Source: a virus. Taken from it: a DNA stretch of 45,501 bases. A model generated the notes under the pieces. That model had not been told where the DNA came from, searched no databases, and saw only the letters and a list, made by a program, of their open reading frames with translations. Within the stretch, counting starts at the first letter, position 1. Each line of letters starts with the position of its first letter. Shown here in pieces: positions 7,136-44,209 of the stretch. The translations under genes were made by a program, and so were the position numbers. The DNA lies in IMG/VR virus record IMGVR_UViG_3300044295_000355, positions 1 to 45,501 of that record; one strand, 5' to 3'.

Positions 7136-7487
7136 CGAACGACGACGACTGACCGAGGAGTGCCGCGCGATCATCGAGGCGCGAGTGCGCGAGCCGGGCG
7201 AGGACGACGACCGCGACGACGGGGACTTGATCCCCCTTGGCAAGGCGCTCGCCGCGATCCGTCTCGGCCTCGCGCCGCGCGTCGAGATCGAGCCACCGAC
7301 ACGCGTGCCGCCAGAGTGGCTGACGATGTGCCTCGACGGAGCCGCCGCGCTGCTCGACGGAGCACGCGAGCGATACCGCGCCGCTCCGTGGGCGGCGACG
7401 GAAGACGACATCGAGTGGGGACGCCTGCTCGCGCAACACGTCGACGAGCTTCGCGCGTTGCTCGACGACTACGAGGAGGGACGATGA
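7125..7487 (+). CDS. Hypothetical acidic protein, 120 aa
   Basis: No family recognised. The start appears to be GTG 7125; no ATG lies nearby in frame and the ribosome site (TGCGAGG) is moderate. The protein is acidic and helical, with two charged segments (REPGEDDDRDDGD; TEDDIEWGRLLAQHVDELRALLDDYEEG) around a short Pro-rich stretch. It overlaps the winged-helix candidate gene at its 3' end (ATGATG). Possibly a small regulator or anti-host factor, but nothing in the sequence specifies this. Confidence 0.65.
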   Translation: MDADERRRLTEECRAIIEARVREPGEDDDRDDGDLIPLGKALAAIRLGLAPRVEIEPPTRVPPEWLTMCLDGAAALLDGARERYRAAPWAATEDDIEWGRLLAQHVDELRALLDDYEEGR

Positions 7488-7969
7488 TGCAAGAGGACTT
7501 GTTCGCAAGGATTCCAACCGTTCACGAGAAGGTCCACGCTCGCGTCAACGATGCGCGAACGGTTGCGACCGAGGAGCAGACGCAGGTGTTGAACGCGCTC
7601 GTGCTCGCGCACGGCAAGCTGACGCAGCGCAATCTCGTCGACGCGTGCCCCGGCATCGGCGCTCACCGCCGCGAGGTCGACGCCGGAATCGTTTCGCCAA
7701 CGTCGTTGGAGACGACGCTGCGTCGCGTGAGGCAGATCGTGCGCGACCTTCGCGTCGAACTTCGCGTGCCGATCCTCTCCGACCCATCCGGCTACTGGCT
7801 CCCACGTACCGAGGACGAGGTTGCCGAGTACGTCGACCGAGTCGAGAAGCAAGCAAGGGCGACTGCGCGAGCGTGGTTCGAGACGCTGCGATCGCTCGAC
7901 GGGTTCCTGAACGACGGGCGACAGCGTGCTCTGTTCGACGTCATCGCCGCGCTCGGGGGTGAGCCGTGA
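7484..7969 (+). CDS. Putative winged-helix protein, 161 aa
   Basis: Likely nucleic-acid-binding protein. The segment TQVLNALVLAHGKLTQRNLV, followed by SLETTLRRVRQIVRDLRVEL and a wing-like IPILSDPSGYWLPR-type strand pair (about residues 68-107), resembles winged-helix domains with a helical C-terminal extension (VDRVEKQARATARAWFETL). The GYWLP ending is common to phage winged-helix proteins that choose between alternative effectors. ATG 7484 (or 7487) has GAGGAGGG upstream. It overlaps the methyltransferase start by 4 bases, so it may regulate or recruit that enzyme. Confidence 0.7.
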   Translation: MMQEDLFARIPTVHEKVHARVNDARTVATEEQTQVLNALVLAHGKLTQRNLVDACPGIGAHRREVDAGIVSPTSLETTLRRVRQIVRDLRVELRVPILSDPSGYWLPRTEDEVAEYVDRVEKQARATARAWFETLRSLDGFLNDGRQRALFDVIAALGGEP

Positions 7970-8598
7970 CCTTCCTCGCCGTGATGGACCCACCGTGGGA
8001 TCGAGAGCGTGGCGGCGGAGGACGTGGCGCGGAGAACCACTACCCACTCGCCGGACCGAAGGAGATCGCGCGTGCCGTCAAGGACAGCGGCGCGTGGGTC
8101 GACGTTGGCCCGGCGCTCGTGTGGGTGTGGACGACGTCGGCGGCGATGATGCGCGGGGACTTCGCCGCGCTCGTCGACGGCCTCGGCGTTCGCTCGTGCG
8201 CCGGCTTCGTCTGGGCGAAGGTCGACGTCGTCGACGCCTACCGCGAGAAGACGCCGTGGTCGGCGAGCGAGCCGCTGTTCTCCGCTCCGGCGAAGCCCGG
8301 CCTCGGTCAGTGGACGCGCTGCGAACACGAGCACTTGATCGTCTGCCGGCGAGGTAACGTGTCGGTACCGCCGCCGGTGCGCCGTCAACGGTCGATGATC
8401 TACGCGCCGCGCGGTCCGCACTCGCGCAAGCCCGACGCGGCGTGGTCGATCATCGAGGAGACGTCGGCGCATCTTGCGACGACGGGTGTCGAGTTCTTCG
8501 CGCGGGAGCGTCGACGTTCGAGCCTGATCAAGTGGAGCGCGTGGGGCAGGGTCGACGGCGAGTCGATGCCGGTGCGCCATGTAACGGAGGAAGCGTGA
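7966..8598 (+). CDS. MT-A70 family N6-adenine DNA methyltransferase
   Basis: Transfers methyl from SAM to adenine N6. The catalytic DPPW motif is at residues 8-11 (MDPPW), followed by GRGAENHYPL, the ALVWVWTTSAAM strand, GFVWAKVD, and LGQWTRCEHEHLIVCRRG, all in the MT-A70 order. PRGPHSRKPD and a terminal FFARERR segment complete the family pattern. At 210 residues it is a compact stand-alone domain without a specificity subunit. GTG start at 7966 overlaps the upstream gene; another GTG-start gene follows. It could protect phage DNA or prepare adenines for further modification by the GNAT proteins. Confidence 0.92.
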   Translation: MTFLAVMDPPWDRERGGGGRGAENHYPLAGPKEIARAVKDSGAWVDVGPALVWVWTTSAAMMRGDFAALVDGLGVRSCAGFVWAKVDVVDAYREKTPWSASEPLFSAPAKPGLGQWTRCEHEHLIVCRRGNVSVPPPVRRQRSMIYAPRGPHSRKPDAAWSIIEETSAHLATTGVEFFARERRRSSLIKWSAWGRVDGESMPVRHVTEEA

Positions 8599-13985: not shown

Positions 13986-14001
13986 GGGCGTGCTTCCTAT
14001 C

Positions 14002-16800
14002 TCACGAGACGTAGGCCGTCTGCGGGCTGTCGGCGGATCGGTTTCCCATCCTGTCACAGTGGACGACCTTGACGTAGTAGGTCGTTCCCACCGTCATGCC
14101 GGTGACGATCGCGTTCGTTCCGCGAACGACGACGGCAAGCGTCGACGACGAAGGAGTGAACCCGTTCGTCGTGCTCTGGTGAACTTCCGTTTCGAGGTAG
14201 TTCCGATTCAGGTCGCCGCCGGGCACCGACCACGAGACACGAACGGTGCGGATCGCGTTCAGCGCTCCGAGGTTCTGCACGGTCGGAGCAAGTGCGCTCG
14301 CGGGCGGCGAGAGTCCTCGACCGGGCACCGCGCCCGTCTGCGAGATGATGTCGTCATACCGATCGACGCGAGCAACCGCTCCAACGTACGAGGCGTCATC
14401 CGTCACCTTGCGAAGCGTCATTGTGGTTCGAGACGACGATCGAGAGATCGAGTGCGACACAGAAACGCACGCGCCGGAAACCAAACGCCCAAAGAACGAA
14501 GCGATCTGATAGCCGGAAACAAGTTCTTCCTCAGTCAGACTGATCTTGTCTTGCGACTGCGCGCGTCGATCGAAAAGCGTTTCAACTTCGCACTCAGCGA
14601 TCGGAACCGAGAGGTCACGCAGAGCGGTGTCGGCCATCGACTGCGCCTCTGTCGATCGATTGATCAGCGAGTCGCTCGCTACGCGCACGCGAGCGAACCG
14701 TCTTCCGTAGGTCCGAATCGACGTCTTGTCGACCGCACTGACGACGTAGATCTTTCGATTCGCTCGCGGGTCCTTGTTCGCGTTGTCCGTGTACTCGACG
14801 ACCCAAGTGTTTCGAGTGTCGTCGACCTTCGTCGAGAGACGCTGAATCGAAAGCACTCCGAGAGGAGAGAAGCCGAAATCACCCCTAAACACCGACGACG
14901 ATGACGCCGGATTGAACATCGCAAGTCGGAACTGTTGGCGTAGGTCGTCCCATCGGAAACGAACTCGCCATCCGATCTGCGTTGCGATCTCGTCGAGAGA
15001 CTGAAGCACGTTCTTCGACGCAGGCTCGTTCCACTGGTAGACGGTCCACGCCGACGAGATAGGAGTCCAGAGCGTCGGCTTTCCTCCTGCGTACGATCGC
15101 GCCTCGATTCCTCGAATCTGCCCGACGTTGTTCTCCGTCGCCCACGCCGCAGTCGAGACGCGCGTGAGAGTGATCGTCGTCGACGTGACCGACGTAATGG
15201 TGTCGACGGTCCCAGTCGGCGTGTTGAAGTTCGTCGTCCCGGATACGACGAGCGTGTCGCCTACATTGAAGTGATGCGGCTTGCCGCGTCCGTTTACATC
15301 GGTCGAAACGGCTGTCGTCGAGAGAAGCGTGAGGACGATCGGAGAACCAAGCGCGGCCGTCGACGCAACGAGTAGGTCGTAACGAGCGGGATCGTTGTCG
15401 TCGATGATCTGCTGAAGCTGACCTTCGATCGCGCTTCCTCCGACGCTGCCGTAGCTTCTGTCCGTCCCGTCCTTGTTCGGTTCGATGAAGACGTCCATGA
15501 GCGCGACGCCAAGATCGCCGATTGTGACCTCGACGAAGTCGTCGCTCACGTCGACGGCTCGAATGAATCCGTCGAACATGACTTCCCAATACGGCCCGGC
15601 GTCATCGCTAGACATGCCGAACGGGACGATCGCCGTTTCAATTCTCACCGCGCGCATCGATCGAAGAAGATGCTCTCCAGTCGTCGAGTCGACGAACGGA
15701 TTGTCCTTGAACGTCGACGTCACCGAGAATGGGCTTGCGTTGTAGAGATAGAAGTTTCTGAAGAGGCGCGCCCTCGCCGTCGAGATGAAGTCGTCGACGC
15801 TATCACTCCACGAGACGGACTCGACGAAGTCGTTGTCGTCGATCTTCGTCAGGTTGATCCAGTCAATGTCTGTCTTCGAGAGGAAGTCGAATGAGTACGT
15901 CGGCGAGGTGGCGGCAGGATCGACGATCGGAGTCTTCACGAGAACGCGGGTGTATGTCGCCCACTGTCTGCGATCGCTGTCTTCAGCAACTGAAGTTCCG
16001 TCTCGCTTGATCTGAAAGTCGCGCACTCCATCGGAGTAGAGTTTGCGAAACCACGCGACGTCAGGAGGAAACTTTGTGATGATTAGATCGTCAATCGCTC
16101 CGGCGTAGAAGTTGCCATACGTCCCTACGGCTGTTCCCTGCTCTCTCGAAGCCCCAACGATCCACCTAGACGACGATCCGCCGGTCGGCCACGGACGGTT
16201 CTTTGCGCGCGCGACGTTCACGCCGTTGTGAAAGAAGTCGATCTGCATCTGCCCAATGTTGTCTGGATCAGGTTGCATCCTCACGCCGACGTGCGACCAG
16301 ACTCCAACGACGAGTCGACCCGATCCGCTGCCATTGTTTCGACTCGTCCCGACATCGTGTTCCCAGTTCATGCGGAACGAGCCGTCAGTGATCGCCTGAA
16401 GATTCATCTGGACGTTGGTCACCTCAGTCTCCGGCGACGACCACTCACCGAGTTCGATTATCGTTCCATTCGCTGCGAGCGACGTCGGACGAACCCAACA
16501 CGCGATGCCCCATCCTCCGTTGGATGCTTGGAAGATTCCCTGATCGCCGTCTACTGTCGAACGTGAGTGCGCCTGAGTCGCGCCGTCGTAGCTTCGAGCA
16601 CCTGACGTCGTGTTGTTCTGCATCGCCGCCGGAAACACGCCCGGAGTTCCGTTCAGAACCGTCATAGATCGAGCGCCGGCCCCGATGACATCAATGAGTC
16701 CGCTCGTCGACAATGTCTCGTCGAAGCGAAGCTGCATCAGGTAGTCGGCCGTCGTCCCTGCCGTCGACGCAACGTGTGCAGGTTGATCCGCTCTTGCCAT
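14002..16800 (-). CDS. Tail-tip hub protein with N-terminal LamG and C-terminal FN3 domains, 932 aa
   Basis: Large tail-tip protein in the Tal/hub position. Residues about 15-260 are a concanavalin/LamG-like domain: GARSYDGATQ, GWGIACWVRPTSLAANGTII, FRMNWEHDVG, GVWSHVGVRMQ, YAGAIDDLIITKF. The middle (about 280-800) is hub-like beta structure. The last 95 residues are an FN3 domain (TVRVSWSVPGGDLNRNY through TYYVKVVHCD). It probably joins the tail end to a host sugar. GAAGAGG precedes ATG 16800. Base composition is less GC-rich than in the head genes. Confidence 0.8.
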   Translation of the reverse strand: MARADQPAHVASTAGTTADYLMQLRFDETLSTSGLIDVIGAGARSMTVLNGTPGVFPAAMQNNTTSGARSYDGATQAHSRSTVDGDQGIFQASNGGWGIACWVRPTSLAANGTIIELGEWSSPETEVTNVQMNLQAITDGSFRMNWEHDVGTSRNNGSGSGRLVVGVWSHVGVRMQPDPDNIGQMQIDFFHNGVNVARAKNRPWPTGGSSSRWIVGASREQGTAVGTYGNFYAGAIDDLIITKFPPDVAWFRKLYSDGVRDFQIKRDGTSVAEDSDRRQWATYTRVLVKTPIVDPAATSPTYSFDFLSKTDIDWINLTKIDDNDFVESVSWSDSVDDFISTARARLFRNFYLYNASPFSVTSTFKDNPFVDSTTGEHLLRSMRAVRIETAIVPFGMSSDDAGPYWEVMFDGFIRAVDVSDDFVEVTIGDLGVALMDVFIEPNKDGTDRSYGSVGGSAIEGQLQQIIDDNDPARYDLLVASTAALGSPIVLTLLSTTAVSTDVNGRGKPHHFNVGDTLVVSGTTNFNTPTGTVDTITSVTSTTITLTRVSTAAWATENNVGQIRGIEARSYAGGKPTLWTPISSAWTVYQWNEPASKNVLQSLDEIATQIGWRVRFRWDDLRQQFRLAMFNPASSSSVFRGDFGFSPLGVLSIQRLSTKVDDTRNTWVVEYTDNANKDPRANRKIYVVSAVDKTSIRTYGRRFARVRVASDSLINRSTEAQSMADTALRDLSVPIAECEVETLFDRRAQSQDKISLTEEELVSGYQIASFFGRLVSGACVSVSHSISRSSSRTTMTLRKVTDDASYVGAVARVDRYDDIISQTGAVPGRGLSPPASALAPTVQNLGALNAIRTVRVSWSVPGGDLNRNYLETEVHQSTTNGFTPSSSTLAVVVRGTNAIVTGMTVGTTYYVKVVHCDRMGNRSADSPQTAYVS

Positions 16801-16801
16801 G

Positions 16802-17044
16802 TCACGCCTCTTCGTTCGTCGTCGACTTCTGGATGGCCTGCGATACCGCTTCGGAGAATTGACGAACAGCATCGAATCCGGCCGAAGATCTTCCGAGGAG
16901 AGCGCCGAACCTTTCCTCGATCTCCGACAACGTAGAAAGAAGAGAGATGCGCATGGCATCTCGATCTCCCTTCCTCCTGTTTTCTGTCGTCTCCAGTTGA
17001 GCCGAAAGACGCTCGACGAGAGCAAGCGCGTCGTCGTTGTTCAT
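16802..17044 (-). CDS. Small coiled-coil tail-region protein, 80 aa
   Basis: Wholly helical (NDDALALVERLSAQLETTEN, SLLSTLSEIEERFGALLG). It lies between the Dit-like gene and the hub gene, overlaps the Dit stop by two bases, and has GGAGG 4 bases before ATG 17044. Probably a tail-tip assembly or accessory factor; no family is recognised. Confidence 0.7.
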   Translation of the reverse strand: MNNDDALALVERLSAQLETTENRRKGDRDAMRISLLSTLSEIEERFGALLGRSSAGFDAVRQFSEAVSQAIQKSTTNEEA

Positions 17045-17973
17045 CGTTCCTCCAACGTCACTTCGAGAATCTTCACGTTCGGCTTCGACGTCGATCCGGG
17101 GATCGTCGCGTTGATGTGGTTGATCGAATCGACTCGACCGTAGCAGGTGACGTAGTCGGTACCTCCGGCAGACTTGTTGATGTGATCGCCTCCGACGACG
17201 AGCGCCGGGAAGAGCGGAGAGACGAACACGTTGGCTGCCGTGTAGAACTGAAGTGCCATCGCGGCGGTGAACGTGAACGGGAACACAACAAGATCGTCGT
17301 AGTTAGACGCCGACCCTACGTTCGCAATCGTCTGGTATCCCCAGATGCCGAAAACGCCGATGCCCGTCATCGAGAGGACGTATCCGAGGCCGTAACTTCC
17401 AACGACGCCGTTCCTGTACTGCGTCAGTGCAACGGGATTCGCCGCGCTTCCTCTCGTGATCGATGCGCCGGCGGTGACGATGAAATGATACCAGCCGTTT
17501 GACGGAACGCCGTCTGCCGCGATCGTACAGTATCGCCAAAAGCAAGCCGTCCATCCGTCGTTCGTCGTAGGCGCGAATCCCGACTGACCGAGTGACGCGA
17601 ACTTGTTCTGAAGATTGACCTCAAATCCCGTCGCCGATGGGACACCGAGATTCTTCGTTCCGTCTCGTGACGCCGGAGAGGTCGAGAGTGCTGCCCCCGT
17701 CGCGGTGTAATTCGTGATCCCAGACATCGACGACAGATCGTAGTTGAACGTCCACGCCTGCGCGTTTCCTTCGAGCAGAAGCGTCAGTCTCTCCGCCGTG
17801 GTCGCGTCCTGCGGAGTCGTCGAAAACCTGAACTTGCGACGGCTGTTGATTCTCGACGAGAACATCGCGCCGCCGATCGTTCGCTGGAACGAGTCTCCGA
17901 CTTGAATTCTCTCTTCGGAAAATGAGTCACCTCTGACGGGGATCGTGATTCCATTGATCGTGAGTGCCGGCAT
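17041..17973 (-). CDS. Distal-tail-like protein with inserted LamG-type domain, 310 aa
   Basis: In the Dit position, between tape measure and hub gene. Residues 1-85 (PALTINGITIPVRGDSFSEE, SRRKFRFSTTPQDATTAERL, WTFNYDLSS) and the C-terminal 50 look like a split beta domain. Between them is a LamG-like insert: GWTACFWRYCTIA, GWYHFIVTAGAS, NYDDLVVFPFTFTAAM. 'Evolved' Dits of other phages carry carbohydrate-binding inserts in this way. ATG 17973 has AAGGAG upstream; a longer in-frame extension to 18237 has no coding character. Confidence 0.7.
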   Translation of the reverse strand: MPALTINGITIPVRGDSFSEERIQVGDSFQRTIGGAMFSSRINSRRKFRFSTTPQDATTAERLTLLLEGNAQAWTFNYDLSSMSGITNYTATGAALSTSPASRDGTKNLGVPSATGFEVNLQNKFASLGQSGFAPTTNDGWTACFWRYCTIAADGVPSNGWYHFIVTAGASITRGSAANPVALTQYRNGVVGSYGLGYVLSMTGIGVFGIWGYQTIANVGSASNYDDLVVFPFTFTAAMALQFYTAANVFVSPLFPALVVGGDHINKSAGGTDYVTCYGRVDSINHINATIPGSTSKPNVKILEVTLEER

Positions 17974-17984
17974 CGTCGTCTCCT

Positions 17985-20495
17985 TCAGTTCTTTTCGTCG
18001 CCATAGCCCTTCGGCGACTGAGCCTTCTTGCCCTTGTGTCCGTTGCGAGCGAGCCGGCGGAGGTCTTCCCAGTCGCGCTGCGAGTCGCCCTTCGAGTTCC
18101 AGTTCTCGATGTGGATCGTCATCTCCATCACCTGCCTCGGCGTGAACATTCCCGCGCCGGACTCCGCGTCGGCGCTCGCGTAGATCGCGGCCATCGCCTT
18201 GAACCCCGATGGAACGTTTGCAAGGTCTTGCCCCCACGAGTCCTCTGTCTTCGTCTCCTCGCCGGCTCCGCCGCCTCCGGTTCCTCCTTCGCCGTTCGTG
18301 CCGCCTCCTCCAGTTGCTCCTTCTTCTGCACCGAGCGCTGCGGCTTCCTTCACGTCGTTGATCATGTCTCCTACTCCGACGAAAGCTGATTCATCGCGTT
18401 TCATGTATTCAGCTTTTGTCCCGAAATCCTCGAATCCGGGAATCTTCCGAATGAAATCAATGATTCCGTTGTAAGCCATGATAACGACATTGACGAACTG
18501 GATGACGGAATCGGCGAGTGGCGTCAGAAACATCTCGTCGATCCATCCGAACACTGAAACAAGCCCATCGACCCAGACGAGGATCACGGACGCAAGTAGA
18601 GAGATAAGTGGGACAACCATCAAGACTACCTGAAGAAGTCGCACGAAGATTGCGACGTTCGATCCGAACAATCTTGCAAGGATAATGATGATCGGAACGA
18701 GCGATACAATCGCGTCGCCGATCGTCACGAACAGTCCACCGAGCACTACAAGCACCGGTTGCAGTGCTCCGATGATCACTCCGATCGCATCGAAAAGAGG
18801 AGTGAGGACGCCGAGAGATTCGATTAGTTTGTCGAGTGAATCTCCGAGAAGTCCGCCAAGCATCGAACCGAGTGCGCTTCCGATTCCGGTGCCGGCAGGT
18901 CCAGCGACTGCGGTTCCGATCACGCCGCCGGCAACGCCGCCGAGAGCTTGCCCGACGCCGGACGCCCCGCCCTCGATCGCCGTTGTGGCGATGCCGGCCG
19001 CTCCGCCAAGCGAGTCGATGCCAGAGGAGAGAGCGTCGCCGAACTGTTCGAGCGGATCGCGGAGATCGAGCGCGCCCTCCGCGAGTGCGTTCGCCGACTC
19101 TCCGGCCGCGAGGAATTGCCGATTCATCTCATCGATGTCGCTCGTCGTCGCATCGACGGCGTCGACGAAGGCGAGTTCGATGACGTCGGCCGGAGCACTG
19201 AAGGCGGACCCGAGCTTGTCGAGCACTTCCTGAATCGCCGCGTCGGCCTTCTCCAAGTCGACGCCAGCGAGGTTCGCATCGAACTGTCCCTTCGACACCT
19301 CGAACACGCCGCGATCCTCTCGCGTCGCGCGGTCCTCGGCGGTGTAAGTATTCGCGCTCAGTTCGGCGTCGACATCGGCGGCGGCCTTGACTGAGTCGAG
19401 ACGACGAATGACGGACGCGTACTCCAGAGAAAGAAGGCGCTCGGCCGCCTCTTTGAGCGCCTCTTGATACTTGCGCTCCTGTTCGTTTGCGTCGTTGATC
19501 GCCTTGTCCTGATCCTCCAGCGACTTGTCGACTCCGCTGTCCTCGATCATTGATGCAAGCAAGTTCTGCTGCGCGGCAAGAGCGGCGGACGCTTTGACGA
19601 ACTTTTCGACGGCCTCTTTTCCGCCGGCCGGCATCCATCCGCCTGCCTTCGACATCTCTTGCAGCAACTGCAAAGAGTAAGCGCCGCCGCCGACTTCGCT
19701 GGCGCGAAGCTTAGCCATGCCAACGTCTTGTTGTGCTCGCTCGACTGATCGACGCTGTCCTAGAAGTTCCGGCGATTCTCCGGCGAGCTTCGCCGCCGTG
19801 CCGAGACGGATGCCGGCGGCTTTCTCGTCAAGGTCGTCAAGTGCCTTCCTTGCCTTCGCCGCCGCCTCCGCCGCTCTCGTTCCGAACAGATCGAACTTCT
19901 CGATCAGGATCGCAACGCCGGCCGTCGCCGCAGTGAGCGCGGCGAGCATGGGTCCGCCGGTGCCGAGACTCTTTGCGATGTCCGCACCAGCGCCGACAAC
20001 GTCGGTGATCGCGGACGCCTGCACGCCAAACGCCTGCGAAACGCCACCAGCGCTCGTCTGAAGAGCGCCCATGATCTCGTCGACCTTGCGCGCTTTCTCG
20101 CCAAGGTGCCCATGCGATTCGGCGAACTTCTGCGCCTCCGCCGCCGACTTCGCCGACGCCGTTGCCTGATCCTTCGTTGCTTTCTCCGCTGCCTTGACGG
20201 CGTCGGCCGCTTCTTTCGCCGCCTTCGCCGCCTCCTTCTCGGCGGCGGACTCTTCGTCGAGCTTGCCGGTCAATCTTGCGACGGCGGTTGACGCCTCCGC
20301 GTGCGCCGTCTTCAGCGCGCGCATCGCATCCTCGGAGACGTTGCCCGACGCGTTCGCCGCGTCGAGCGCCGCCTTCAGGTTCTTCTCCTTGGCGACGAGT
20401 TCGTCGAGCTTCTCGGAGACGGCCTTCATCGCGGCGGCAGCGCCGCTCGCGTCGCCGTCGAACTCCACCATCACGCCGCCAACGCTGACCGCCAT
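17985..20495 (-). CDS. Tape measure protein, 836 aa
   Basis: Scaffold that sets tail length. Residues 1-150 are Ala-rich coiled coil (EKLDELVAKEKNLKAALDAA, EKEAAKAAKEAADAVKAAEK). Glycine/alanine-rich hydrophobic stretches run from about 520 to 690 (GVAGGVIGTAVAGPAGTGIG, DAIVSLVPIIIILARLFG, VVPLISLLASVILVWVDG). The C-terminus has a Gly-rich charged linker. It is the longest tail gene after the chaperone pair, as expected. From its length a tail of the order of 100-130 nm would be expected. AGGAGG precedes ATG 20495. Confidence 0.92.
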   Translation of the reverse strand: MAVSVGGVMVEFDGDASGAAAAMKAVSEKLDELVAKEKNLKAALDAANASGNVSEDAMRALKTAHAEASTAVARLTGKLDEESAAEKEAAKAAKEAADAVKAAEKATKDQATASAKSAAEAQKFAESHGHLGEKARKVDEIMGALQTSAGGVSQAFGVQASAITDVVGAGADIAKSLGTGGPMLAALTAATAGVAILIEKFDLFGTRAAEAAAKARKALDDLDEKAAGIRLGTAAKLAGESPELLGQRRSVERAQQDVGMAKLRASEVGGGAYSLQLLQEMSKAGGWMPAGGKEAVEKFVKASAALAAQQNLLASMIEDSGVDKSLEDQDKAINDANEQERKYQEALKEAAERLLSLEYASVIRRLDSVKAAADVDAELSANTYTAEDRATREDRGVFEVSKGQFDANLAGVDLEKADAAIQEVLDKLGSAFSAPADVIELAFVDAVDATTSDIDEMNRQFLAAGESANALAEGALDLRDPLEQFGDALSSGIDSLGGAAGIATTAIEGGASGVGQALGGVAGGVIGTAVAGPAGTGIGSALGSMLGGLLGDSLDKLIESLGVLTPLFDAIGVIIGALQPVLVVLGGLFVTIGDAIVSLVPIIIILARLFGSNVAIFVRLLQVVLMVVPLISLLASVILVWVDGLVSVFGWIDEMFLTPLADSVIQFVNVVIMAYNGIIDFIRKIPGFEDFGTKAEYMKRDESAFVGVGDMINDVKEAAALGAEEGATGGGGTNGEGGTGGGGAGEETKTEDSWGQDLANVPSGFKAMAAIYASADAESGAGMFTPRQVMEMTIHIENWNSKGDSQRDWEDLRRLARNGHKGKKAQSPKGYGDEKN

Positions 20496-36380: not shown

Positions 36381-37709
36381 TCACACGAACGCCATCTCGC
36401 TCGCGAGCAGCAGCTCGTGAACGGCCCAGACGAGCGCGTCGAGGCGATCGGGTGAACGCTCTCCGGCGAGGCCGGTGAACGAGGTGAGTTGCTTCTCCAA
36501 CGCGCGGAACGAGCCGACGTGGAAGACGCGCGGCTCGCGGTGCGGCGTCCTCTCGTACAGGGCCGACACCGGCTCCGCGCGTGCGCGCTTGCCTTGCGCG
36601 GCGCGCACCGTGCGGACGTGCGCGAGCGGGGACACGGACGCGATCGTCTCGCTCACCATCTCGCCGCCGTTGTTCACCTCGGCGACGATGCAGTCCGCGC
36701 GGTGCTCCTCGTACGCGTCGACCGCTCGCTGCGCCCATCCTCGCGGCGGCAGCTTGCACGAGAGGTCGTCGAGGACGTACGCGTTGCCGTCGACGCCGAG
36801 GCCGACGACGACGATGCCCGTCTCGTCGGAGTGTGTCGACGAAGTCGCGGCAGGGTCGACGCTGACGACGACGCGCGAGAGTTCGGGCGGCGACTTCACG
36901 CGCACGGCGTCGATCGTCGCGCTCGTCCACAGCGCGCCGTCGACGTCGTCGAGAAGCTCCGCCTCGATCTCCTGTCGACCGAGTCGCGTTCCCTCGTACG
37001 TCTCGACGAGCTTCGAGAAGAAGGACGGATCGAGGTTGTCGCGGTTCGCGTAGCTGCTTCCGGTCGTCGTCACTGTCGAGGGTGCGGCGCGCAGGAATCG
37101 GAGCGTGTCAATGGGTCGCGGCGTCGTCGTCACGATCGCGCGCGGCGACGAGCCGTCCGGCGCGGTGAGACGCAAGCCGAGATCAAGGTTGGCGAATAGC
37201 TCGTCGCGCGTCGACGGCTTCCATGCGGCAAGTTCCTCGATCCACGCGGTGTCGTGCTGCGGACCGCGCGCGGCATTCGGGTCGTCGGACGAGAAGATCG
37301 TGGCGGTCGCTCCACCCGGCCACGTCACGCGCCGCTTCGACGGCTCGAAGATCGGACGTCCGCGCGGGTCGCTCGTCGCAAGAATGCCAGCGGGACCGAG
37401 CACCATCACGTCGCGTGCGTCGCCAGCGTCGCGCGCGGCGAGCGCGATGTATCTTGCCGCGCCGGAACGCACGCGCTCGTGGATCCACTCTGCTCCCGTC
37501 CTCGTCTTGCCGAACCCGCGCCCCGCCATGACGAGCCAGAAGCGCCACGCGCCCGGCGGCGGTCGTTGCTCTGGTCGCGCCCAGAACGGCCACGCCTGAC
37601 GGATGCGCGCACACGTCGACGGACCGAGACGACGGAGAAGCGCGCGACGATCGGCGCTGTCGAGGGAGAGCAGGCGCTCGCGCAGCGCGGCGAGGTCGCG
37701 CGGGCTCAT
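36381..37709 (-). CDS. terL: Terminase large subunit
   Basis: ATP-driven packaging motor with nuclease. FWLVMAGRGFGKTRTGAEWI has Walker A (63-69); HDTAWIEELAAWKP has the Walker B acidic pair (about 158-159); VVTTTPRP-type coupling motif AIVTTTPRPIDTL follows. The RNase H-like nuclease shows VVVSVDPAATSS (D285), CIVAEVNNGG (E344) and SPDRLDALVWAVHEL. Length 442 aa is normal for this compact class. ATG 37709 overlaps the terS stop (ATGA). No in-frame extension upstream is coding-like. Confidence 0.95.
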   Translation of the reverse strand: MSPRDLAALRERLLSLDSADRRALLRRLGPSTCARIRQAWPFWARPEQRPPPGAWRFWLVMAGRGFGKTRTGAEWIHERVRSGAARYIALAARDAGDARDVMVLGPAGILATSDPRGRPIFEPSKRRVTWPGGATATIFSSDDPNAARGPQHDTAWIEELAAWKPSTRDELFANLDLGLRLTAPDGSSPRAIVTTTPRPIDTLRFLRAAPSTVTTTGSSYANRDNLDPSFFSKLVETYEGTRLGRQEIEAELLDDVDGALWTSATIDAVRVKSPPELSRVVVSVDPAATSSTHSDETGIVVVGLGVDGNAYVLDDLSCKLPPRGWAQRAVDAYEEHRADCIVAEVNNGGEMVSETIASVSPLAHVRTVRAAQGKRARAEPVSALYERTPHREPRVFHVGSFRALEKQLTSFTGLAGERSPDRLDALVWAVHELLLASEMAFV

Positions 37710-38242
37710 CGCTTGCCTCGTCGATCGGCCATCGCGTCGAGCGCGGCGGCGAGTGCTTCCGTTGCATCGTCGAGCGTCGAGTCGACGTCGTTTCCACCAT
37801 CGAACGGGTGCCGCCCCGCCTCGATGTTCTCCTTCGCCCATCGTGAGCGGTGACGACGTTCGAGGCGATGCGCCGCCGCCTTCCAGTCCTTCTCCGCTGC
37901 CCTGCCGATGATCATGACGTCGCGCGCTTCACTCTCCGCCGACGCCTTCTCGATCTCGTGGGAGAAAGACACAAGATCGACCTCGTGTCCGCGCGGAGTG
38001 TACCCTGAAGCCACGACGAGCCGACGGAGTTCCGCTCCCTCTTTCAACCATGCAAAGACAGTCGTGCGATCGATGCCCGCCGCCTGCGCCGCCGTCTCGG
38101 GAAAGTTCCCGGCGCGGACGAGGTCGATGATGCGTCGGTGCAACGAAGGATCGAGGACGAACGAGCGTGGTCTGCCCGGCTTGCCTCGCGGCGGCTTCGC
38201 CTTCGCTGTCTTCTTCTTCGTCGTCGTCTTCGACTTTGGCAT
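37706..38242 (-). CDS. terS: Terminase small subunit
   Basis: DNA-recognition subunit. Basic start (KSKTTTKKKTAKAKPPRGKP) then a clear HTH (HRRIIDLVRAGNFPETAAQA, AGIDRTTVFAWLKEGAELRR), a helical oligomerisation part (FSHEIEKASAESEARDVMII) and a basic/acidic C-terminus. First gene of the late operon; start ATG 38242 has no good ribosome site and lies only 29 bases from the divergent ATG at 38272, so both promoters must overlap coding sequence or lie elsewhere. Confidence 0.85.
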   Translation of the reverse strand: MPKSKTTTKKKTAKAKPPRGKPGRPRSFVLDPSLHRRIIDLVRAGNFPETAAQAAGIDRTTVFAWLKEGAELRRLVVASGYTPRGHEVDLVSFSHEIEKASAESEARDVMIIGRAAEKDWKAAAHRLERRHRSRWAKENIEAGRHPFDGGNDVDSTLDDATEALAAALDAMADRRGKR

Positions 38243-38271: not shown

Positions 38272-38868
38272 ATGGCAACGAAGAAGGGTAGCACCGACAA
38301 CGCGGCGACCATGGCGGCAAAGATCAATCCAGCGCTCGATGCGCTTGCTCGTCCTATCGCAACGCTCAAGCTCGACGAGAGGAATGCGCGGAAGCATGAG
38401 CGGCGCAGCCTCGACACGATCAAGACATCGCTCTCGACGTACGGGCAGCAGAAACCCATCGTCGCTCTGACGAGCGGCGTCGTCATCGCCGGCAACGGCA
38501 CGCTCGAAGCGGCACGCGAACTCGGATGGGACCGCCTCGCCGTCGTCACGTTCGACAACGAGGACGAAGCGCGTGCGCGCGCGTTCGCCATCATGGACAA
38601 TCGCAGCGCAGAACTGTCGTCGTGGAATCAAGATCAACTGATCGAAAGTCTGCAATCGTTCGACGAGTCTTTGCTGAAGTCGGTCGGGTTCACCGATGAA
38701 GCATTGAAGACGATGATCGAAAAGACGCATGTCGAGTTTGATACCACTTCAAAGCTGAACTCGGCCATGTTCAGAGTCATCGTCGAGAATCTCGACGAAC
38801 GACAACAGTTGTTGTTGATCAATAATCTTGAATCGCAAGGTTTCAATTGCAAAGCGATGATGATGTGA
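38272..38868 (+). CDS. ParB-like (ParB/Srx-fold) protein, 198 aa
   Basis: Residues about 24-130 are a ParB N-terminal-type domain: LARPIATLKLDERNARKHER, SLDTIKTSLSTYGQQKPIVA, VVIAGNGTLEAARELGWDRL and DEARARAFAIMDNRSAELS. GNGT with the later DNRS is the nucleotide-binding core; the fold now covers CTP- and nuclease-type functions. AGGAGG precedes ATG 38272. It is 8 bases before the ABC-GNAT gene and forms a two-gene operon. In phages such domains often accompany DNA-modification or packaging genes. Role inferred, not proved. Confidence 0.85.
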   Translation: MATKKGSTDNAATMAAKINPALDALARPIATLKLDERNARKHERRSLDTIKTSLSTYGQQKPIVALTSGVVIAGNGTLEAARELGWDRLAVVTFDNEDEARARAFAIMDNRSAELSSWNQDQLIESLQSFDESLLKSVGFTDEALKTMIEKTHVEFDTTSKLNSAMFRVIVENLDERQQLLLINNLESQGFNCKAMMM

Positions 38869-38876
38869 GGTGAAAG

Positions 38877-39995
38877 ATGAAGATCGAAGTCAATGTCTCT
38901 GTCAAGACATCACAAAGTGGACGAGTTCGACAACTCGAAGGCATGTTCGATTGTCCAACGCCGTCGACGCAGACGAAGTCATGGTCGTTTGAGGCACCGA
39001 TCAACGAAAGACCTTGGAACGTAGGACTGATCGTCGGTCCATCTGGAGCAGGAAAGTCGACGATCGCTCGCCAGCTCTTTGGCGATGCGGTTGATCGTCC
39101 TCTTACTTGGCACAAAGATGCTGTGATCGACGACTTCGATGAATCGATCTCGATGCTCGACATCTCGGACGCATGTCGAGCTGTTGGCTTCAACACGATC
39201 CCGGCGTGGATGCGTCCTTTTCATGTTCTGTCGACGGGAGAAAAGTTTCGCGTTGAACTGGCAAGACGCATCATTGAACACGCCGATCCTGTTGTCGTCG
39301 ACGAGTTCACTTCTGTCGTTGATCGACAAGTGGCGAAGATCGCATCGAACGCCGTCGCAAAGTTCACGAGGAAGAGAGACAGAAAGTTCGTCGCCGTCAG
39401 TTGTCATTCTGACATCATTGACTGGCTACAACCAGACTGGATCATCGAGCCACATCTGGAGAAGTTTTCGTGGAGGTTACTTCAACGACGACCAACGCTC
39501 GACGTCACAATCAAAAGAGTCCATCACTCCGAATGGAAAAGGTTTGCTCCATTTCATTATCTGACCGCGGATCTAAGCGTGTCGGCTAGATGTTTTATTG
39601 GATACATAGATAACGAACCAGCGGTATTCTGCGGAGTTCTTTATCGTCCACATCCAAAAGTGGAAAACATCTATGGTCTGTCTCGTCTCGTGACGCTCCC
39701 AGACTTTCAGGGCATCGGCGCTGCGCCAGCAGTCACTGATGTCTTGGCAGCCTGTTACAAGACGTTGGGCGGTAGATTCAGAACTTATCCTGCTCATCCA
39801 GCTTTGATACAGAGCTTCGACAAGTCAAAGAACTGGAGTCTTGAACGCAAGCCCGGGCAGTTCGCAAAGTTTGGAGAATCGTCACGGATAGCTTCGATGA
39901 AGGCGAAAGAGGGCAGACCGTGCGCCGTCTTTGAGTACAGAGGCAAAGCCCATGAATCATTAGATGAAGCGCTCGATCTCGTTGGCGCTTTGTAA
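38877..39995 (+). CDS. ABC-type ATPase fused to a GNAT (Mom-like?) acyltransferase domain, 372 aa
   Basis: Residues about 35-195 are a soluble ABC ATPase: LIVGPSGAGKST (Walker A, 54-62), HVLSTGEKFRVELARRI (signature LSTGE, 118-122), PVVVDEFTSVVDRQ (Walker B D142/E143), AVSCHSD (switch H177). There is no membrane domain. Residues about 212-325 are GNAT-like: HHSEWKRFAPFHYLTADLSV, SARCFIGYIDNEPAVFCGVL and LSRLVTLPDFQGIGAAPAV with Q-x-x-G-x-A for acyl-CoA. The pattern of HYL..., LPDFQGIG and phage context recalls Mom-type proteins, but I cannot confirm homology. GAGGTGAAAG precedes ATG 38877. GC is far lower than in its neighbours. Confidence 0.85.
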   Translation: MKIEVNVSVKTSQSGRVRQLEGMFDCPTPSTQTKSWSFEAPINERPWNVGLIVGPSGAGKSTIARQLFGDAVDRPLTWHKDAVIDDFDESISMLDISDACRAVGFNTIPAWMRPFHVLSTGEKFRVELARRIIEHADPVVVDEFTSVVDRQVAKIASNAVAKFTRKRDRKFVAVSCHSDIIDWLQPDWIIEPHLEKFSWRLLQRRPTLDVTIKRVHHSEWKRFAPFHYLTADLSVSARCFIGYIDNEPAVFCGVLYRPHPKVENIYGLSRLVTLPDFQGIGAAPAVTDVLAACYKTLGGRFRTYPAHPALIQSFDKSKNWSLERKPGQFAKFGESSRIASMKAKEGRPCAVFEYRGKAHESLDEALDLVGAL

Positions 39996-40097
39996 CTAAA
40001 GAAAGAAGTCAAGCAAAAGAGCCGTCATCGGTGCGTGCGATCACTGCGCGCATCGTCGAACGAACCGAAGCGGGAAGCGCATGTTCCGCGCAAACGT

Positions 40098-40140
40098 CGC
40101 CTCGCAGACCTGAACGCATCAGGATGCGAGGCGATGTCTT
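40098..40140 (+). terminator. Rho-independent terminator of the ParB/ABC-GNAT operon
   Basis: cgcctcgca (40098-40106) pairs with tgcgaggcg (40125-40133), and inside it cctga pairs with tcagg, giving a long two-part stem. ATGTCTTTTG follows. It lies 103 bases after the ABC-GNAT stop. Confidence 0.75.
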
Positions 40141-40249
40141 TTGTGAATCGTCGCATTGACGCGACATGGTTCGTTGAACTGCTCGAATCCTAGGCGTTCC
40201 TCGTCGAGGGAATCGACACGGAACGGCGTTCGCGTTGCAAACAATCGAC

Positions 40250-42849: not shown

Positions 42850-42862
42850 ACGACGACGCGTG

Positions 42863-42963
42863 GCCCCGGCGATACGGGGCGCTCGTGGGGTGCTTCGGAG
42901 GGCACGACGGCGGCGCGGGATTCCCTGCGCGTCGTCGTCGTGTCGGCAGGTTCGACGCCTGCC
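42863..42963 (+). promoter_or_regulatory. Structured leader of the MoxR-VWA genes
   Basis: The 175-base gap holds three hairpins: gccccg/cggggc (42863-42880), gcgcggg/ccctgcgc (42913-42930) and ggcagg/cctgcc with loop ttcgacg (42945-42963). The last imitates a tRNA T-arm. They may form an RNA control element; the region is not a tRNA. Confidence 0.4.
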
Positions 42964-43024
42964 CGCCCCGCTTCTCGTCGCCGTCGCCTCGACGTCGACG
43001 CACAACGAACAAAGGAACCGCACC

Positions 43025-44209
43025 ATGACGACGAAGAAGATCGCCCTCGCTCCCGCGCCGGCCTCGACGCCGCGCGCCGCTGTCAACGCGACGGAGGCCG
43101 CGCTGCGCGCCGCCGTCTTCGAGCGCGACGAGATCGCGCGCCTCGCCATCGCCTGCTCCATCGCCGGACAGCACGTCCTCCTGCTCGGCGAACCGGGCAC
43201 CGGCAAGTCCTACTTCGCCGAGGCGCTCGCGTCGGCCATTGACGCGCGCTCGTTCTTGTACCTGATGACGCGCACGACGACGCCGGAGGAGATCGTCGGC
43301 GCGCCCGACATGAAAAGGTGGGCGGACACCGGCGAGCGCGTGCTGCGCACGGCGCACAAGCTCGCCGCCGCCGACGTCGGCTTCCTCGACGAGATCTGGA
43401 AGAGCAACGGCGTCGTGCTGAACGCGCTCCTGCGCTTGCTGAACGAGCGCACCTACGTTGACGACCTCGGCGAGCACCGCTCGCCGCTCCGCTTCGTGAT
43501 CAGCGCGAGCAACGAGACGCCGGAGCCGGGCGAGGTCGACGCGGTCTACGACCGCTTCCTCCTTCGGTACTTTGTCGAGCCGGTGCAGGACCCGGCGCTG
43601 CGACGTGCGATGGCGCGCCGACAGCTTCCGCCGCGCCCGGTGCAGACGATGACGCTCGCCGACCTCGACAACGCGAAGGCGGAGGCGAGCGCGCTCCCGG
43701 TCGACGACGCCGCGCTCGACGCACTCGACGCCGTCCTCCGTGACTTGCGCGCGAAGGGCATCATCGTCTCGGACCGGCGCTTCGTTGCGACGGTGTCGTT
43801 GATGCAGACGCTCGCGTGGATGGACGGACGCGCGAGCGTGTCGGCGTCGTACGTCGAGACGGCGCGGCACACGACGTGGTCAAAGGTCGAGCAACGCGCA
43901 ACGGTCGACGCCGTCGTCGAGACTCACCTGCCGAAGATCGACAGCGATCTGACGAAGCTGGCGAAGGTCGTCGCCGAACAGGACGCCGCGATCCGCGCGG
44001 CGATGAGCGGCAACGCGCCGCGAGCGAAGAAACAGGAAGTGCTCGGCGGCGTCGCCGACGAACTCGACGACGTGATCGCCGACCTCGACAAGCTCGCCGA
44101 GGAGCACCCCGGCGCGGCATCGGCGATCGACGTCGTGCGGGCGCGAGCGAAGGAGACGATGGCGGCGGCGAACGCGGCGGTGATCGCCGCCTTCAAGGGA
44201 GGAAAGTGA
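43025..44209 (+). CDS. MoxR/RavA-like AAA+ ATPase, 394 aa
   Basis: AAA+ ATPase of the MoxR class. EIARLAIACSIAGQHVLLLG, then GEPGTGKS (Walker A 55-62), TTPEEIVGAP (MoxR-specific insert), VGFLDEIWKSNGVVLNALLR (Walker B D122/E123), FVISASNETPEPGEVDAVYD, RFLLRYFVEPV (sensor/Arg region). The C-terminal 120 residues are helical. These enzymes remodel proteins with a VWA partner, which is encoded next (ATGA overlap). AAAGGAA precedes ATG 43025. Confidence 0.92.
   Translation: MTTKKIALAPAPASTPRAAVNATEAALRAAVFERDEIARLAIACSIAGQHVLLLGEPGTGKSYFAEALASAIDARSFLYLMTRTTTPEEIVGAPDMKRWADTGERVLRTAHKLAAADVGFLDEIWKSNGVVLNALLRLLNERTYVDDLGEHRSPLRFVISASNETPEPGEVDAVYDRFLLRYFVEPVQDPALRRAMARRQLPPRPVQTMTLADLDNAKAEASALPVDDAALDALDAVLRDLRAKGIIVSDRRFVATVSLMQTLAWMDGRASVSASYVETARHTTWSKVEQRATVDAVVETHLPKIDSDLTKLAKVVAEQDAAIRAAMSGNAPRAKKQEVLGGVADELDDVIADLDKLAEEHPGAASAIDVVRARAKETMAAANAAVIAAFKGGK

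Follow-up and report, generated by a model that had tools for sequence, protein, structure and literature searches.

The ParB-like gene and the adjoining gene for a fusion of an ABC ATPase with a GNAT acyltransferase domain (ABC-GNAT) probably form a phage DNA-modification cassette that acylates bases of the phage's own DNA, with the ParB-like protein and its C-terminal tail as the DNA-side partner. The gene pair carries intact ABC and acyl-CoA motifs, the tail is linked to the enzyme across relatives, and ABC-GNAT has repeatedly been exchanged with Mom in a common genome slot. Since base acylation by ABC-GNAT proteins has already been published as a prediction (Iyer et al. 2013, as cited in PMC7824862 and PMC8056088), the idea itself is not new. 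The evidence from the partner (tail and ParB) and the exchange with Mom were not found in the literature examined and are new here.

The gene pair and the ABC-GNAT protein

The window, i.e., the whole stretch of DNA that was analysed, is an entire virus record of 45.5 kb from a tailed phage, with YqaJ and RecT recombination genes, a DnaB helicase gene, terminase, portal and head genes and bpMoxR. As described in the sequence-only reading, the two open reading frames are separated by 8 nt, counted from the parB-like stop to the ABC-GNAT start, and diverge from the terminase genes, both of which lie on the minus strand (Table 1). The pair had also been credited with its own terminator. A strong hairpin was indeed found about 95-150 nt past the ABC-GNAT stop; however, its T run is short (TCTTTT), and a terminator pattern scan did not list it. 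Elsewhere in the window, a DNA methyltransferase-like gene (7966-8598, plus strand; phrog_359, 9.5e-21; DPPW motif) is preceded by a gene of unknown function (7160-7969). Judged by this methyltransferase-like gene, a second modification of the phage DNA is possible.

Table 1. Positions in the window of the gene pair, its domains and motifs, and neighbouring features
Feature	Position	Strand	Remarks
Terminase large subunit	36384-37841	minus	phrog_979, 6e-30
Terminase small subunit	37709-38242	minus	phrog_4102, 2.6e-26
ParB-like gene	38272-38868	+	198 aa; ABC-GNAT partner
ParB N-terminal domain, approx. residues 29-115	38356-38616	+	domain model E 1.8e-47; GC about 64%
C-terminal tail domain, approx. 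residues 163-198	38758-38868	+	tail model E 8.4e-15; standalone version is phrog_28816
ABC ATPase-GNAT fusion	38877-39995	+	372 aa; phrog_11143 full length, 2.6e-90; AlphaFold2 model pLDDT 92.7, pTM 0.86
Walker A, GPSGAGKS	39036-39059	+	residues 54, 56, 57, 59 and 60 invariant in 59 homologs
ABC signature, LSTGE	39228-39242	+	L118, S119 and G121 invariant in 59 homologs
Walker B Asp-Glu and D-loop, DEFTSVVDR	39300-39326	+	D142, E143, S146, D149 and R150 invariant
H-loop, Cys-His	39402-39407	+	C176 and H177 invariant
GNAT acyltransferase domain, approx. residues 207-324	39495-39848	+	model pLDDT 89.4; generic-GNAT PDB matches, E 2e-6
HYL motif of the GNAT domain	39555-39563	+	H227 and Y228 invariant, L229 nearly so
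LPDFQGIGAA, acyl-CoA pyrophosphate loop (QxxGxG type)	39696-39725	+	P275, D276, Q278 and G279 invariant, G281 nearly so
Hairpin, candidate transcript end	40089-40145 (about)	+	fold -35.5 kcal/mol, z -6.2
bpMoxR-type AAA ATPase gene	42860-44209	+	about 2.9 kb downstream of the cassette

ABC-GNAT was assigned to PHROG 11143, a family without assigned function, by a match over residues 1-360 that spans both the ABC and the GNAT parts, with ATPase and acyl-CoA motifs intact. All of the motifs named in the sequence-only reading (Walker A, LSTGE, Asp-Glu, the Cys-His H-loop and LPDFQGIGAA) were present. Since the matching residues, among them G54, S56, G57, G59, K60, L118, S119, G121, D142, E143, H177, R270, P275, Q278 and G279, are invariant across 59 diverse homologs, the motifs are no chance reading. 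The HYL motif is probably the acceptor-side active site, which would give it a catalytic role. The AlphaFold2 model of ABC-GNAT is confident and comprises two domains only, ABC and GNAT. In a fold search with this model, the PDB matches of the ABC part were ABC nucleotide-binding domains; as this fold comes with the complete catalytic motifs and the protein lacks a membrane domain, it is a soluble ABC ATPase. The best PDB matches of the GNAT part were generic GNATs, including protein and small-molecule acetyltransferases, and 53 of 59 homologous GNAT domains match Pfam Acetyltransf_1/_7. The GNAT domain is canonical.

A tblastn search with ABC-GNAT returned 81 phage records, 40 of which cover most of the query; the weakest records match the ABC part only. 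The hosts of these phages range from Gordonia to Lactococcus, Streptococcus, Leptospira, Porphyromonas and Aeromonas. Further relatives were found at 13 IMG/VR loci and at hundreds of places in bacterial genomes, the best 80 of which are mostly from Planctomycetes, Nonomuraea, Streptomyces and Endozoicomonas. ABC-GNAT is located close to terminase in several annotated phage relatives (SL25, P335, LE4, Javan141, Sisko, Pmp13 and MismyG), and ABC and GNAT are encoded by separate genes in Lactococcus, Streptococcus and Oenococcus phages. The window protein also matches the published members pT24/QAX98348.1 (AsFcp_2; match H22) and PX29p085, and it shares 38% identity with the AsFcp_2/PX29 proteins. 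PX29 gp085, an ABC-GNAT, is entered in one of the two papers citing the prediction (PMC7824862, PMC8056088) as a GNAT presumed to modify DNA at an unspecified base. Public annotations are misleading at three loci (L031 3905-5346, L017 and L021): the GNAT part is called 'DNA polymerase' (Enterococcus phage 9184), the ABC part 'iron siderophore transporter' and ParB 'DNA modification methylase'.

The ParB-like partner, its tail and GC composition

The ParB-like protein matches phrog_620 ('ParB-like partition protein', 2.6e-31), which places its N-terminal domain in the ParB/Srx superfamily, as well as phrog_498 (DNA methyltransferase with a ParB N-terminus, 6e-29) and, in PADLOC, the MTase_II N-terminus (3e-17). 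The score for Pfam ParB_N was below threshold (15.9 of 26.3 bits). In a motif comparison, the window ParB showed GNGT in place of the GH[GT]R of many family members, and the Arg-containing box II (GERR or GHxR) of NTP-binding ParBs was not found in it. Thus, a CTP-driven sliding clamp is not to be assumed.

The conserved neighbour of ABC-GNAT is a C-terminal tail domain of about 35 aa, usually fused to ParB, rather than ParB as such. A tail gene lies upstream of ABC-GNAT in 94 of the 104 loci whose upstream sequence extends to 700 nt or more (77 within 150 nt of the ABC-GNAT start, 17 further upstream). The tail ends just before the ABC-GNAT start or overlaps it, most often by about 20 nt. The sequence-only reading had named the absence of a conserved pairing of ParB and ABC-GNAT in other phages among the findings that would speak against it; in this neighbourhood survey, the pairing proved to be strongly conserved. 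The tail also occurs as a lone mini-gene without ParB (PHROG 28816) in a Porphyromonas phage (L019), a Pseudomonas phage (L025) and a faecal phage (L032), and ParB, tail, ABC and GNAT are joined in a single 611-aa ORF in Gemmataceae (L232). A second candidate for a ParB-ABC-GNAT fusion (L241) was rejected, since its tail lies in another frame and the arrangement looks like a frameshift. In Hyphomicrobium (L219 3581-4718), two tandem ParB-tail genes precede one ABC-GNAT, and in Nonomuraea-type loci extra genes lie between ParB and ABC-GNAT, with no conserved gene found among them. Neither tail nor ParB was found near ABC-GNAT in eight viral loci (L012, L014, L022, L026, L027, L028, L030 and L031), mainly from T4-like and jumbo phages. 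Since ABC-GNAT occurs in these phages without a nearby tail or ParB gene, the partner is not obligatory.

The GC content of ABC-GNAT is 50.7%, as compared to 65.8% for the record and 70.1% for moxR. The value of 43-45% given earlier from two sampled lines of the gene applies to some of its 60-nt lines, which range from 38 to 58%, but not to the gene overall. Within parB, the GC content steps from about 64% to 50% near 38590-38620, at the end of the ParB domain; of 248 control stretches taken from the rest of the record, just 3 have an equally sharp step. Low GC as a trait of the family was rejected, since the difference between ABC-GNAT and its flanks had a median of +1.6% in 90 relatives. As it is not a family property, the low GC content fits local acquisition or exchange. 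The step suggests an exchange point, and by its composition the part of the window copy that follows the ParB domain probably came by exchange. A second low-GC stretch of the window (14000-19000, about 58%) contains large tail-region ORFs on the minus strand.

Relation to Mom and genes linked to ABC-GNAT

A set of Mom loci was obtained with the Mom protein of Microbacterium phage Bush (phrog_1384, 8e-55) as the query. The same ParB family lies directly upstream of Mom in 75 of 82 loci, 74 of which have a CxxC zinc-knuckle tail (CPHCGKEF type), and no ABC-type tail was found in the 82 loci. In a maximum-likelihood tree of the ParB N-domain (112 rows, built without the tails), the most economical assignment of partners requires 24 changes between ABC-GNAT and Mom, and at least 12 changes are forced by well-supported branches; since the alignment has few columns and some branches are long, the exact number of switches is rough, while a single switch is excluded. 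The Porphyromonas Mu-like phages BK068090 and BK068096 are 86% identical over the 2.8 kb before the cassette and 82% over the last 93 bp. At this shared site, one carries tail, ABC-GNAT and formyltransferase and the other Mom. Com is a translational activator of Mom, and Pseudomonas phage Komp_PAO1_1 has a Mu-type Com (PF10122, 9e-21) upstream of tail and ABC-GNAT. In view of the ParB-linked exchange, the shared Mu-like site and the link to Com, ABC-GNAT probably substitutes for Mom functionally. The earlier suggestion of a DNA-modification module gains support here, since ABC-GNAT and Mom interchange beside the same ParB and at the same Mu-like site, so that the module occupies the slot of Mom. 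Aeromonas phage PX29 (L283, L284) carries both ABC-GNAT (gp085) and Mom (PX29p046).

The further suggestion that the GNAT domain is itself of the Mom type did not hold. An hhalign comparison of the GNAT-domain profile with the Mom profile gave a probability of 0.2%, i.e., no detectable similarity, and Pfam Mom was matched by only 1 of 59 homologous GNAT domains (E 0.04), in line with the Acetyltransf_1/_7 and generic-GNAT matches given above. The solved Mom structure (8bv8) did not appear in the list of the 50 best PDB matches for the GNAT domain. Of the residues invariant in Mom (HYS, ELxR and AD), only the HY pair was found in ABC-GNAT, the other columns having no clear counterpart. Conversely, the acyl-CoA loop QGxG is conserved in the ABC-GNAT alignment and absent from the Mom alignment. 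Since the GNAT domain is canonical and has no detectable similarity to Mom, its chemistry need not be that of Mom. ABC-GNAT is probably Mom-like at the system level but stands outside the Mom family, and its product may differ.

Genes linked to ABC-GNAT in some relatives provide clues to the chemistry. Of the 29 ABC-GNAT phage records, 7 have an ASCH gene above the Pfam cut-off, as compared to none of the 41 Mom records (Fisher p 0.0013); the comparison is weakened by the many Mom records that are short fragments. The close linkage is independent of this count: all seven ASCH genes lie within about 1.3 kb of ABC-GNAT in records of 8-83 kb. The ASCH protein YqfB of E. coli hydrolyses N4-acylcytosines via a Thr-Lys-Glu triad (PMC6972931). 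On visual inspection, Lys and Arg are retained in the linked phage ASCH proteins and the Thr nucleophile is not; thus, these proteins may be readers rather than erasers. The linked ASCH genes are a hint towards acylated cytosine as the product. A Formyl_trans_N gene directly follows ABC-GNAT in three unrelated phages (L019 6131-6604, L025 5113-5730 and L023 1814-2464), whose ABC-GNAT enzymes belong to one subgroup. Formyltransferase as a general third component was rejected, since it was present in only 3 of 112 loci. The formyltransferase-type gene of Gordonia phage Sisko is publicly annotated as tRNA-methyltransferase. In one genome only, that of Gordonia/Rhodococcus phage Jace (L016 6101-6526), an aspartate decarboxylase gene (PF02261, 2e-33) directly follows ABC-GNAT, with an ASCH gene 1.1 kb beyond it. 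In the window, neither an ASCH gene nor a formyltransferase gene was found.

Proposed function, alternatives and known systems

We infer that DNA is the substrate of the cassette. ABC-GNAT would move an acyl group from acyl-CoA onto an exocyclic amine of a phage DNA base. The ParB domain would handle the DNA and the tail would dock the enzyme, bringing ABC-GNAT to the DNA, and DNA engagement or base access is probably driven by dimerised ABC domains as they bind and hydrolyse ATP. The acylated base would shield the phage genome from host nucleases or bacterial defences, in the same manner as Mom protects the Mu genome. A more general scheme is conceivable, though doubtful: ParB would be a general DNA-modification chassis with interchangeable, enzyme-specific tails for Mom or ABC-GNAT, and ABC-GNAT an ATP-driven DNA acyltransferase and the DNA counterpart of TmcA, producing, e.g., N4-acyl-cytosine, with the linked ASCH proteins of some relatives as erasers or readers.

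Several points speak against a DNA-acylation cassette. Association is not catalysis, no measured modified base was found in the literature for any ABC-GNAT carrier, and profile similarity to Mom is missing. Moreover, carriers free of tail and ParB exist, PX29 has Mom in addition to ABC-GNAT, and the best fold matches include protein and small-molecule acetyltransferases. Among the top fold matches are RimI and Naa50, both of which acetylate proteins, and phage GNATs acetylating RNA polymerase are known (Rac, as cited in PMC7824862). Acetylation by ABC-GNAT of a protein target (the RNA polymerase of the host, or a protein of the phage or of a defence system), with ParB as a DNA-binding regulator only, is nevertheless unlikely, since it leaves the repeated Mom exchange beside the same ParB, the Com-linked copy and the swap at the Mom site unexplained. 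TmcA, also an ATPase-GNAT protein, makes N4-acetylcytidine in tRNA, and its general plan, the appearance of tRNA(Met) cytidine acetyltransferase (2zpa) in the top 50 of the fold search with the GNAT domain and the linked ASCH genes of some relatives would suit a TmcA-like acetylation of RNA. This appears quite improbable, since the ATPase of TmcA is of the helicase type and not ABC, and the ParB partner, like the exchange with Mom, speaks for DNA.

That the GNAT domain is a true relative of Mom and makes its base, N6-carbamoylmethyl-adenine, would agree with the common ParB, the common Mu-like site and the HY pair in both active-site regions. It is very improbable in view of the hhalign result, the unmatched ELxR and AD motifs invariant in Mom, and the QxxGxG acyl-CoA loop, which is nearly invariant in ABC-GNAT and which Mom does not have. 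Little credence is likewise given to a toxin-antitoxin or anti-phage defence module carried on the phage. GNAT toxins exist, and PADLOC returned a weak ABC match (mad3, 9e-10) besides the ParB match to MTase_II, but these matches fall on generic ABC and ParB regions, no antitoxin-like gene was found, and the links of the cassette are with phage genomes, Com and the slot of Mom. DNA acylation is retained as the probable function. Through the exchange with Mom and the enzyme-matched tails, both the product of the ABC-GNAT family and the role of ParB become bench-testable in cultured phages. If confirmed, the acylated base would add a chemical class of phage DNA modification and provide a new DNA-labelling enzyme.

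With regard to known systems, the published ABC-GNAT proteins (AsFcp_2 QAX98348.1, pT24 and PX29p085) resemble the window protein in full-length domain order and motifs. These proteins of large phages have no nearby tail or ParB gene, whereas the window has both. Mom of phage Mu (8bv8; phrog_1384; Pfam Mom) has the GNAT fold and shares with ABC-GNAT the ParB partner of most relatives and, in Mu-like phages, the genome slot and the Com link. In comparison to Mom, ABC-GNAT retains the acyl-CoA loop, possesses an ATPase and is accompanied by a different ParB tail. In TmcA, tRNA(Met) cytidine acetyltransferase, the ATPase domain is N-terminal to GNAT as in ABC-GNAT; unlike ABC-GNAT, it combines a helicase-type ATPase with an RNA substrate and is not part of a phage cassette. 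ParB-type domains or genes have also been described beside phage DNA-modification enzymes, their role being given as unknown (PMC12783734). These ParB-linked phage DNA methyltransferases and CmoX carboxymethyltransferase systems differ from the ABC-GNAT cassette in enzymes and chemistry and share with it a ParB-type domain that adjoins, or is fused to, an enzyme modifying DNA bases.
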